From: Microcyclospora pomicola
Lineage: Eukaryota > Ascomycota > Dothideomycetes > Capnodiales
Length of the DNA: 64,000 bases
Direction of reading: 5' to 3'
Assembly (NCBI GenBank): GCA_002786065.1
Contig: NHNY01000016.1
Coordinates: 124,001 to 188,000, forward strand
Part shown: positions 28,291 through 61,562 of the stretch, piece by piece
Layout: every line of letters starts with the position of its first letter
Position numbering within the stretch: the stretch's first letter is position 1
Translations under genes and position numbers: made by a program
Notes under the pieces: generated by a model
The model's database searches: none
Seen by the model: the letters and a program-made list of their open reading frames with translations, nothing else
Told to the model about the DNA's origin: nothing

Positions 28291-29378
28291 TACGCGCGCC
28301 AGACCTCCTCGCAACACCTGCAGCGGACGACTCTCGAGCGGGTGTGGATCTGACTGCTCGGCTTTTCGTTGCTAAAGACGCGTCATTTCATCATTCTCGG
28401 CCACCATTTTTTCTCTTCCAGCATCTTGCGTGACACATAAACCGTCCAACATCATTCAATATATCCATTGTCTTTCTTCGATCACGAACAGGCTTTTGAC
28501 AGGACCGTGGACTGAGCGGAGCGGTGCAGTGCAGGGACGCAACGGAGATATATACCCCCCTTTCACCCGGATCTTGTAGCCATGACATAGATGCATTTAT
28601 TCTTCGACAGTCTTCTCTGATCGTGACAGTGCTGTTTTATGTGTGATGACTGCTGCAGGTGTGACAACGGCACTCGTATGCCTCTTTCTTGCCCGCCAAT
28701 CGACTCGATATTGTGAGTGCCATGGACCAAACGTGCCCTCGGTACGAGTCTCTGAATGCCTAAATTACTCACATACACATTGAACCATGCTACGATTGTG
28801 AAGTTTTGCCCCTGCTTGCTTGTGTCCTCCTACATAAGCCATAGACGTAAACCAATCTTCTTGCTGCAACTCCAGCGGCTCTCATCGGATCTCCCGTCAT
28901 CTGAAGAGGCTCAAAATAGGAAACGCCGCGCAAGTCTGAGGCGAGATACAGGAGAGAAGGCTGTTGACAACCAATGGCACAACTGATGGCACAAGGCTTG
29001 TATACATTGCCTTGCCCTTGAATGCAATATGAGGAGCACGAGTTTCCAAGGTCTTCTAACGACTCCTCACACGTAGGTTGAAAGCATGCAGAGTGACCAT
29101 GACAGCCAGGTGAGCGTTTGCATACGCATCTGTGCGTGTCTACACAATTGACAGGACGCGAAGAGAGGCATGGATCTGAACAGAGGTGATGTATCTAACG
29201 CACGTTCATCACTACACCATGACAATACATCACGTTCTCACTTGGAGTCATTGATCGATAGATGCATGTGATGTGAAGGTGAGAATCTAGTCACGTGAGC
29301 AGAGGCGGTGACTGAATCGCGCAGGCGGCAGTATTCTCGCTAAACGTCGGCCCGCCGCCCACTAGCGTCAACACACGA
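28291..29378. other. Intergenic region upstream of U2
   Basis: 1.09 kb holding the 3' UTR of the coiled-coil gene and the upstream region of the U2 snRNA gene. No further gene recognised; many TGATGT/GATGT-like words around 29180-29280 were looked at for box C/D snoRNAs without a convincing C/D pair. Confidence 0.4.
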
Positions 29379-29385
29379 TATATAT
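29379..29385 (+). promoter_or_regulatory. TATA element of the U2 snRNA gene
   Basis: TATATAT lies about 48 bp upstream of the inferred U2 5' end, followed by a pyrimidine-rich stretch. Position and context suit a polymerase II snRNA promoter. Confidence 0.5.
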
Positions 29386-29432
29386 TCTTTCCACTTCGTC
29401 GACCTGTTCCTCGATTTTCCTTTCTCCTTTCC

Positions 29433-29680
29433 AGCTCTCTTTGCCTTTTGGCTTAGATCAAGGTACGTTCCCACCACAACCACCTCCACCTCCTTCGACG
29501 ATCATCCGCTGACCCCCCTCCAGTGTAGTATCTGTTCTTTTCAGTTTAATCTCTGAAACGTCACTACGGTGACATTTATTGATTATCCTCATTTTTGGAA
29601 CCGGTCGGGAGGCCGCTGGGCTTGCTTATGTCTCCTGGCACTGTGTCGCTGGTATCGCACTACCTCCAGCTGACGCGAAC
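29433..29680 (+). ncRNA. U2 spliceosomal snRNA, interrupted by an intron
   Basis: Exon 1 is 29433-29462: CTCTCTTTGCCTTTTGGCTT then AGATCAAG, nearly identical to the 5' end of fission yeast U2 and including the U6-pairing segment. Exon 2 is 29524 to about 29680. It begins TGTAGTATCTGTTCTTTTCA, containing the branch-site recognition sequence GTAGTA (29525-29530) and stem IIa, and continues through CAGTTTAATCTCTGAAACGT, the Sm-protein site ATTTTTGG (29591-29598), stem-loop III, and stem-loop IV with the universally conserved loop region CTGGTATCGCACTACCTCC (stem GTGTC/GACGC closing at about 29676). The joined RNA is about 187 nt, the usual U2 length. The two ends are accurate to a few bases. U2 snRNP binds the intron branch point during prespliceosome assembly. 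All diagnostic elements are intact, so this does not look like a pseudogene. Confidence 0.93.
29463..29523 (+). other. Spliceosomal-type intron inside the U2 snRNA gene
   Basis: 61 nt, starting GTACGT directly after ATCAAG and ending CCCTCCAG directly before TGTAGTATCTG. A CTGAC branch element (29509-29513) lies 10 nt from the 3' end, as in the mRNA introns of this window; the eL18 gene here also uses a GTACGT donor. Removing exactly these 61 nt restores a contiguous canonical U2 sequence with no base lost or gained. Confidence 0.9.
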
Positions 29681-31581
29681 TCATCATCACTTTTTCATCA
29701 GTCCTGCTTGCTATCTTCAGCAGCAGCCTGGAGAAGAAGATTTAGTTTCTTATCCTCCCTTGCTTTTGTGCCTTGATCCAAACAGCTGGTGGAGTGTTGG
29801 GAGCATACAGGAAGGATGTCTAGTGTCACATCTATGCTGCTGGTTCACTTCACGCAAAGCTGATTGAATACATGTTCAGACAGATTGTGTCGTCCCATCA
29901 AGCCTGTCCTCAGAGCAGAGGTCTATCATGAGGTATGCTGATTGAGCAGCCTCAACCATCAACCCAGATGCCGAGCGACTGCCACCGAGGATCCACACTC
30001 CACCATGTCTACTCGAAAGCCACCGGCAGTGCTGCCGTACTAACTTGCCTCCACGTTGCAGGCCTGCACTTGATCCTCCCGTGGTTTCCTTCTTGCCCGA
30101 AGAAAAGGCTTTTATCATACTCCAAGTCTCTCCACTATCGGCGGATGCCCCTCCATCCACTCGAACAGTAGGAACACGACACGCATCTATGGGAGCTGAC
30201 TGTTTCCCGCACACCCGAAACTTGCGTTCCTGCTGAGCGCCTACACGGAAGACATGCAGGTCTTATAGTCATAGCGTCGAGGAGGCAGAAGGACATCACA
30301 GGCACACATGGTATAAGCACAGAGTACAGAGGGAAGATAAGAGCCGCATATAGCGGAAAGCTGAGGGTCGCTGGACACAGATACAAATCATTGCGGTTCC
30401 CATTCGTCCATCCAGGAAGGAAGCCGTCGCACCTTGAGCCAGCTCACACGCAGCAGCGTGGAGACAAAAGCGGCTTTCCAGTCACATCAGTTGTTCATTC
30501 ACATGCCGCCCACAGTTTCTCCATTCATGTAGTTGGTCCTGTTAAAGTGAAGTAAACAGCAGTCCCACCGCACGCTTATACTCCAACAGCTAGAGGAATG
30601 ATGGCATCCAGATCATGTGAGTACAAAAGCATTCGAGGGGCTGATTTCCTAAAAGCATCGATAATGCGTGCTTTTGTAATGGAGCAACCGCGCTGCTGGA
30701 ACGATACAAATGATTTATGGAAATCTACGTGATAGCAATGACACAGAAGTCGCAAGGTTATAGTCGAAGATCAGGCAGGTGATGGGTGACCCGCTGTCCT
30801 TCGATTCTGAGACAGGTTGGACGCGAATGTTCATTTTGCGGTGGCATGATGCGTGCGGAGACATAGCTAGGACTCTGAAAACTGTCGCTGATCGACCTTG
30901 TCGTTGTTCAAGGAGAGGTCTATCAAAGAAACCCGAGACCACTGAATCTAGTCAAGACGTACCAGATGACACGCATGGCTTCAGGATATGCACTCTACAC
31001 TTCGATTCGAGGAGGGAGGTCAAGGTGGGGTCCTCGCAATCGAGAGCTGAAGCTGGCAGCTTGGTTGGACCGCGCTGGACGAGCACGTCTGGAGGAAGTA
31101 CGTCGAGCGTAGTGGCCGGTAGATCGAACACGCTGCTGAACGTTGAGGACTCCATGGCAAGCCCGACGAGGCATCCTGACAAGCGTACCTTGAGCATACA
31201 AGATCCCGACTGCGAGTTCTCGGGCGTTGATCATCTGAGGCCTATCGTAAGAAAAACGTCATATACGCCAGCTGGTCGCCTATATACATAAGGACCGTAT
31301 TCCCATTCTCCTCGCGCGTGAGTGCCACAGTGAGGATGGCGCACAGGATACACATCTGATGCATATGGGACGTGAATCGTGTTGGGCGAAAATGTACCTA
31401 AGCTAGCGTCTATCATTTTCAGCCAATGATGTCCTCCACATCAGCTTGTGGAAGCTAGACGGCTGCTGCCGCCTTCGCAACGCCATGTTTATCAACATCA
31501 CAACGTGCGACATCTCGCATTACATCGACACTCACTTTCGCAAATTTCCCTCCTACCTTGAGGCGAACACTCGACGACACG
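29681..31581. other. Gene-poor region between U2 and BUB1
   Basis: 1.9 kb. The longest frames, 30779-31291 on the plus strand and 30952-31197 on the minus strand, overlap each other; neither shows a domain, signal peptide or codon pattern I trust. The last 100-200 bp should be the BUB1 promoter. No tRNA-like structure was recognised. Confidence 0.45.
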
Positions 31582-59870: not shown

Positions 59871-61562
59871 ATGGACAAGACTGTTGGCGTGCTCGGTGGG
59901 GGCCAACTCGGCCGCATGCTCGTCGAAGCGGCCAATCTTCTCGACATCAAGATCAACTTCCTCGACGCTGGGTTGTCGTCCGCAAAACAAGTCAGCAACC
60001 ACGACGGGCATGTGGACGGCTCGTTCAAAGACCCGGCGAAGATCAAAGAGTTAGCCGCCACCTCGGACGTCCTCACGGTCGAAATCGAACATGTCGACAC
60101 GCAGATTCTAGAGCAGATCGCCTCGTCGGTCGATGTGCAGCCGAGCTGGAAGACGATCCGCACCATCCAGGATAAGTATCTCCAGAAGGAGCATCTACAG
60201 AGTCATGGGGTGGCGACGGCGCAGTCGCTCCCGCTCGCGCAGGCGACAGAGGAGGAGTTGAGCAAAGCTGCCGCGGCGCTGGGATTGCCACTCATGCTCA
60301 AGTCGCGACGAGAAGCGTACGATGGCAAGGGCAACTTCCCCGTCAAGACAAAGGACGACTTCAAACCCGCACTCGAAGCACTAGGTGGCAACCGCGACTT
60401 GTACGCCGAGAAATGGGCCGAGTTCAGGATGGAGCTGGCGGTGATGGTGGTCAAGACGAAAGACGAGGTGCTCTCCTACCCGACCGTCGAGACGATCCAC
60501 GAGAACAGCATCTGCAAGCTCGTGTACGCGCCCGCGCGCGGCGTGTCGGCGGCCATCAACGACCAGGCGCAGGCGCTCGCACGGAAAGCCGTCGACGCCT
60601 TCTGGGGCAAAGGCGTGTTCGGCGTGGAGATGTTCCTGCTCGCCGACGACACGCTGCTGATCAACGAGATCGCGCCGCGGCCGCACAATTCCGGCCACTA
60701 CACCATCGAGGCCAGCCCCGTGTCGCAGTACGAGGCGCATCTGCGCGCCATCCTCGACCTCCCGCTGCTCGCGCGCGACCTCCGCCTGCGCGAACCCGCC
60801 ATCATGCTCAACATCCTCGGCGGCGACACCCCGGACTCGCATCTGCGCTTCGCCCAGGAGGCCATCCGCCAGCCCAGCACCAAGATCCATCTCTACGGGA
60901 AAGGCGCCGCGCGCAAAGGCCGCAAGATGGGCCACATCACCGTGTTCGCGCCGACGATGGCCGAGGCCGAGACGCTGATCGCACCGATGATCGCCTTCGT
61001 CGACGGGACCTCGCCCTCCACCACCCCAGCACCCGCCACCCCGCTCGTCGCCGTCGTCATGGGCTCCGACAGCGACCTGCCGGTGCTGCAACCCGGCCTC
61101 GCGATTCTCGACCAGCTCGCCATCCCCTACACGACGCGCATCACGTCCGCCCACCGCACGCCCACCTGGATGGCCGACTACGCCTCCAGCGCCGCGGCGC
61201 GCGGCACGAAAGTCCTCATCGCCGCGGCCGGCGGCGCCGCGCATCTGCCCGGCATGGCGGCCGCGCACACGCCGCTGCCCGTCATCGGGATCCCCGTCAA
61301 GCCGAGCGTGGGCGACGGCACCGACAGCGTGCTGAGCATCCTCAACATGCCGCGCGGCGTGCCCGTCGCGACCGTCAGCGTCAACAACAGCACCAACGCG
61401 GCGCTACTGGCGGCGCGGATCTTGGGCGCCGGCGACGCGGGCGTGCGGGAGCGCGTCGAGGCGTACATGCGCGCCGCGGAGGAGGAGGTGCGCGGGAAGG
61501 ATCGCCGGTTGCTGGAGATGGGACCGCAGCGGTATTTGACCGAGGTGTTGGGGAAGAAGTAG
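59871..61562 (+). CDS. ADE2: ADE2, phosphoribosylaminoimidazole carboxylase (PurK-PurE fusion)
   Basis: Single exon, 563 aa. Residues 1-380 are the PurK-like ATP-grasp half: [80 protein letters not shown] and [10 protein letters not shown]. After a Pro/Thr linker (about 383-392), the PurE half starts with [20 protein letters not shown] at about 391 and holds [34 protein letters not shown] and [20 protein letters not shown]. It carboxylates AIR to CAIR in purine synthesis; loss causes the red pigment of yeast ade2 mutants. The PurE-proximal half has extreme GC at third positions, so several long shadow ORFs appear on both strands. Start chosen at [11 protein letters not shown], standard for the family. 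Confidence 0.97.

Follow-up and report, generated by a model that had tools for sequence, protein, structure and literature searches.

The window, a 64,000-nt stretch of the Microcyclospora pomicola genome, very probably carries a working U2 snRNA gene that contains a 61-nt spliceosomal intron and is spliced to canonical U2. According to the proposed scheme, a precursor would be transcribed from an snRNA-type promoter, and pre-existing spliceosomes would splice it. With ATCAAG ligated to TGTAG, the product would be a canonical U2 of about 187 nt, whose supply from this locus would thus require U2 made earlier. From the sequence we infer both the transcription and splicing of this locus and its role as the main source of canonical U2 in the cell. 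Introns in spliceosomal RNAs bear on whether excised introns can reinsert into the RNAs of the active centre, and on how a cell copes when the splicing machine itself needs splicing. This genome is a natural test case: its two U2 paralogs are interrupted at sites separated by 6 nt, one insert having intact splice words and the other a GG end, and a divergent intron-free copy is present as well.

Layout of the interrupted U2 gene

Read from the sequence, the U2 snRNA gene occupies positions 29433-29680 of the window and is split into two blocks by 61 nt; this gene and its flanking elements lie on the + strand. The 5' exon (AGCTCTCTTTGCCTTTTGGCTTAGATCAAG, 30 nt, 29433-29462, ending in GGCTTAGATCAAG) contains the helix II segment and stem I, with two candidates for pairing with U6, GCU (29451-29453) and GAUC (29456-29459), picked by eye for their complementarity. 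The intron follows at 29463-29523, with a GTACGT donor, a GCTGAC branch word (29508-29513, its A 11 nt from the intron end) and a CCAG acceptor. The 3' exon begins with TGTAGTATCTG at 29524 and ends at approximately 29680, as judged from the Rfam U2 model (RF00004) and the fold of the spliced form, which also place stems IIa/IIb and stem-loops III and IV within it. It contains the branch-site recognition sequence GUAGUA (GTAGTA in the DNA, 29525-29530) and the Sm site ATTTTTGG (29591-29598). The intron is thus one base upstream of GUAGUA and after the U2/U6 helix Ia segment (GAUC).

A covariance model search of the window with RF00004 returned a match at 29505-29684 scoring 110.6 bits (gathering score 46), and this was the sole match at its gathering score within the whole window. 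The 5' end of the model falls inside the insert because the insert interrupts U2. Once the 61 nt are omitted, a complete U2 of 187 nt is obtained, in which GAUC (U6 helix Ia), GUAGUA (branch site), the Sm site and stem-loops III and IV follow in order. The sequence-only reading of this DNA had held that the two blocks join to a complete U2, that the 61 nt between them bear intron marks, and that the junction separates the U6-pairing segment from GUAGUA. The order of the blocks and the score of the unspliced locus agree with the first of these claims, the positions of the end of the 5' block and of GTAGTA with the third, and the splice words described below bear out the second.

For the spliced form, the predicted fold (-55.5 kcal/mol) has a GCC/GGC stem I together with stems IIa, IIb, III and IV. 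Stems I, IIa, IIb and IV also form in the unspliced RNA (-64.1 kcal/mol), and the folds by themselves neither decide nor demand splicing. By eye, GCU and GAUC of U2 are complementary to AGC and GAUU in the single U6 found, as is CUCUUUG of U2 to CAAAGAG close to the 3' end of U6. Helix I was absent from the output of U6-U2 duplex folding, and the U6 pairing is therefore read from complementarity by eye.

The sequence marks of the insert support its assignment as an ordinary GT-AG spliceosomal intron of the U2 type. Counting both strands, the window has 127,878 61-mers, and a single one combines GTNNGT, a YAG end and an RCTRAC whose A is 6-36 nt from that end; as the insert satisfies this test, it is that 61-mer, and with one qualifying 61-mer in so many a chance splice motif was rejected. 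The tubulin genes (alpha, beta and gamma) of the same genome provided ten introns for comparison, with boundaries derived from reading frames; translation confirmed eight of the ten joins, those of gamma 1 and alpha 1 being unconfirmed. Seven of these introns have an RCTRAC word whose A lies 10-19 nt before the intron end (in alpha-tubulin intron 1 the word was read by eye), and beta 4, gamma 2 and alpha 4 lack such a word; nine of the ten, all but alpha-tubulin intron 1, are 53-120 nt long. The insert thus resembles introns of the same genome in its branch word and branch distance. A point against it is the donor, GTACGT, which is one position off GTRWGT, the pattern of 88 of the 136 canonical U3 donors in PMC5832005. 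An introner-like element was also considered for the insert; its DNA has one match in the 23.4-Mb genome, itself (E up to 10, simple repeats and very common words skipped), and at that sensitivity, with no near-identical copies, this candidate was rejected.

Flanking elements and the other small RNA genes

Three elements surround the gene in the window. An upstream element, GCTAAACGTCGGCCCG (29339-29354), was recovered in a scan of small-RNA upstream regions, a TATA-like stretch (29380-29386) lies about 47-53 nt before the presumed 5' end of U2, and a downstream box, CTGGAGAAGAAG (29728-29739), is common to several small-RNA loci. When the 300 nt before each of 11 small-RNA loci were scanned, the upstream element was found within two mismatches in five: it is exact at the window U2, at a second U2 locus (L001) and at one U1 (L009), inverted with one mismatch at one U4 (L012), and present with two mismatches at U3 (L066). 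At the remaining loci (U2 L003 and L004, U1 L010 and L011, U4 L013, and U6) the best site has 5-7 mismatches, equivalent to absence. Genome-wide there are eight exact places, and 17 at two or fewer mismatches; since the reversed control has 21 at this tolerance, a mismatched place carries weight only next to a small RNA. Three of the eight exact places precede U1 or U2. The other five (L039, L042 twice, L044 and L045) have no Rfam match at E up to 0.1, so the element is not exclusive to small RNAs. The downstream box, as YTGGAGAAGA, was present at the window U2, L001, L004 and U4 L013 (four of ten loci scanned), and also 3' of U3 L066. That the window gene shares its upstream element with other small-RNA genes suggests that it is a live U2 gene.

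Some places outside the known small-RNA loci are of interest in themselves. L042 has two exact copies of GCTAAACGTCGGCCCG in tandem, at C23:239750 and C23:239789, which stand 258 and 219 nt before an ATG that, by eye, opens a reading frame, so protein genes may use the upstream element too. L047 (C1:2195134 onward), about 2.3 kb from L004, has the upstream element with one mismatch and a TATA-like stretch, with a CTTGGAGAAGAAG box about 330 nt further along, and is possibly an unknown small RNA gene. Neither L047 nor the other mismatched place, L048, has an Rfam match at E up to 0.1.

The matches to U1 (three loci), U4 (two), U6 (one) and U3 (one) contain no intron. The U1 matches (52.7, 37.0 and 32.5 bits) are all under the gathering score of 69.5, the absence of an intron from U4 was judged solely by how the model is covered (positions 1-138 in loci of 133 and 130 nt), and the U3 match fits its model without an intron. 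Among the spliceosomal and other small RNAs found, only U2 is interrupted. RF00020 (U5) had no match in the genome and was also silent in 14 of 14 control genomes; a U5 loop pattern occurred at 11 places, with the loop word in four of them and none, by eye, in a U5-like context. U5 may be divergent or interrupted, or the searches may have been too weak.

Other U2 copies and the supply of canonical U2

A genome search with RF00004 gave four U2 matches, three of them above the cut-off; as 46 of 206 first-look candidates were scored, the genome has at least four U2 loci. The closest to the window copy is L001 (C10:378817, 112.7 bits). With its own insert omitted, its 5' exon is identical at 30 of 30 positions, and its 3' exon at 148 of 155 aligned bases (two gap columns). 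The L001 insert, 54 nt long, follows CTTAG, 6 nt upstream of the window intron site and inside the helix Ia segment. It starts with GTATGT and has an ACTGAC branch word, and it ends in CCCACGG, with GG in place of AG. In the sequence the next AG comes 17 nt beyond the branch A, within ATCAAG. A CAAG acceptor, confirmed by the reading frame, is also used in this genome by intron 3 of the alpha-tubulin gene, so the CAAG site of L001 could work, and its use would remove AUCAAG, the helix Ia segment. Splicing of L001 at this AG, to a U2 that binds branch sites but lacks AUCAAG and so is unable to pair with U6 in helix Ia, is a possibility of rather less than even odds; such an RNA would serve as a decoy or simply be degraded. 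Use of the rare GG acceptor would instead leave a normal product, and a GC-GG intron is on record for U3 of Nadsonia fulvescens (PMC5832005); an assembly base error at the acceptor would likewise leave the product normal.

The third copy, L003 (C10:704336-704564, 53.4 bits), has no insert and keeps both GAUCAAG and GUAGUA. Its GUAGUA is flanked on either side by additional bases (AAGUUGUAGUAACCUG as against AAGUGUAGUAUCUG), and it has the Sm-like AUCUUUGG in place of AUUUUUGG, and other stem sequences. A TATA-like TATATAA and strong stems, including a perfect 7-bp stem IIb, are present; the minimum-energy fold is without stem I, and the upstream element and the downstream box are both missing from the locus. 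These features bear on an improbable reading, in which L003 is the U2 in use and the two copies with introns, that of the window and L001, are in decay. The lack of an insert, the two conserved words, the TATATAA and the strong stems speak for it; the bases added around GUAGUA, the altered Sm site, the modest score, the missing stem I and the missing flanking elements speak against it, as does the canonical 5' and core sequence kept by the window copy. Being divergent in the most conserved segment of U2 and without the upstream element, L003 is probably no replacement for canonical U2. An Sm-like ATCTTTGG in place of ATTTTTGG is common to L003 and the divergent U4 L013 (C58:531847-531976). Both are without the upstream element, L013 keeping the downstream box, and the two may belong to a separate set of divergent snRNAs or have decayed in parallel.

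The fourth match, L004 (C1:2192702-2192790), scores 36.8 bits, below the cut-off, and consists of a 3' half only (stem-loops III and IV and the downstream box); a 5' half, a branch-recognition segment and a stem II region could not be recognised in it, and it is likely a pseudogene or a chimeric RNA gene. A U2 core 19-mer, with up to three mismatches, occurred at four genome places as opposed to 11 in the reversed control; the window copy and L001 were exact, the other two places had three mismatches, and L003 was missed because it has indels. The 5' word GCTCTCTTYGCC occurred at 21 places as opposed to five in the control, and among the 20 inspected three were the window copy, L001 and L003, the other 17 having, by eye, no U2 sequence behind the word. 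Neither the exact 19-mer places nor these 20 inspected places thus held any U2 beyond the loci listed.

On these sequences, the window copy is the only locus found that would yield canonical U2 by canonical splicing, and a loop in which U2 is needed to make U2 is therefore likely. Such a loop had been proposed, together with a search for an uninterrupted U2 elsewhere in the genome. The search did find an intron-free copy, L003, albeit a divergent, low-scoring one without the upstream element, and the proposal stands insofar as the window holds the sole canonical source found. It does not hold in its strict form, since L003 may serve, and the dependence on prior U2 is not closed. Dependence on prior splicing is common to every spliceosome gene with introns; the U2 loop is special only in that branch-point recognition is the task of the RNA it yields.

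Origin of the introns and comparison with known systems

The U2 exons of the window copy and L001 are alike and their introns dissimilar, so the exons are conserved and the introns free. Aligned against each other, the intron interiors score 10.0, with a shuffle mean of 8.8 and 590 of 2000 base shuffles reaching the score, and the parts before the branch word score 6.5, with a shuffle mean of 7.1 and 1301 of 2000 reaching it. This test is neither support for common descent nor proof against it.

Both insertion sites flank AUCAAG, that of L001 after CTTAG and that of the window after ATCAAG. This position in the U6-pairing segment of the active centre invites the idea of reverse splicing, an origin that has been proposed for U6 introns. 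Separate gains at the catalytic core, with an excised intron each time reverse-spliced into U2 and the product then reverse-transcribed and recombined, would account for sites that lie inside and just after the U6-pairing segment, and for introns not alike above shuffles. They nonetheless appear unlikely: no donor intron was found for the window insert, the only one searched, which has a single genome copy, and similarity is quickly lost in short introns. A bolder version, in which the catalytic and branch-recognition segment of U2 is a repeated intron target, with two reverse-splicing insertions flanking AUCAAG and canonical U2 wholly splicing-dependent, is decidedly doubtful.

A single ancestral U2 intron that predates gene copying and whose boundaries, in one of the copies, then shifted by 6 nt through sliding or conversion with an intron-free U2 has a chance only somewhat below even. 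Both introns are in the same 5' region of the same RNA, both are C-rich with CTGAC near the end, and sliding has been reported for dothideomycete U3 introns (PMC5832005). Shifting ATCAAG across the intron would require two coordinated changes, however, and the lack of similarity above shuffles also weighs against this history. One slid ancestral intron is ranked ahead of two gains, with low certainty.

Titles and opening lines of abstracts among the matches listed from the open-licence literature, which lacks most subscription papers, contained no report of an intron in an ascomycete U2. Exact U2 words had no match in prokaryote contigs and three in viral contigs, none of them, by eye, amid U2 sequence; as these collections comprise viruses and prokaryotes, the result says nothing about fungi. 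Among the best 120 of 6745 matches, the ADE2-type protein encoded at 59871-61562 of the window is closest to a record labelled Quercus suber (83% identity; probably from a contaminating fungus) and to a second record (83%); of the named fungi Acrodontium crateriforme comes first (79%), with Vermiconidia, Lecanosticta, Hortaea and Zymoseptoria further down, which points to a dothideomycete, probably one of the Mycosphaerellales. The nearest known system is the basidiomycetous yeast Rhodotorula hasegawae, whose U2 gene contains an mRNA-type intron (Takahashi et al., 1993, by its title as cited in PMC2586383); the kinship suggested in the sequence-only reading is upheld by that title, the likeness being an mRNA-type intron in a U2 gene. 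Unlike that system, the present genome has a further U2 copy with an interruption, placed elsewhere in the RNA. The R. hasegawae intron is said to be about 60 bp long and to lie beside the branch-site recognition region, reportedly downstream of it, in a basidiomycete host, whereas the window intron is upstream of GUAGUA, by one base, in an ascomycete.

U6 snRNA introns are reported for S. pombe and other fungi (Tani and Ohshima, 1989; Canzler et al., 2016). They too interrupt a catalytic snRNA gene, although the RNA differs, and the one U6 found in the present genome is intron-free. PMC5832005 gives U3 and U6 as the only small structured RNAs known as often interrupted; fungal U3 has normal GT-AG introns with RCTRAC branch words near its 5' end, paralogs occur with and without an intron, and the intron position varies slightly in dothideomycetes. 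The U2 case described here shares with fungal U3 an intron with GT-AG ends and an RCTRAC word near the 5' end, the coexistence of interrupted and uninterrupted paralogs, and slight variation in intron position, whereas the one U3 found in this genome fits its model without an intron. U3 acts in rRNA processing, so its introns involve no self-dependence. As far as we have seen, the phylum, the position of the intron, and the interruption of two U2 paralogs at different sites are new.
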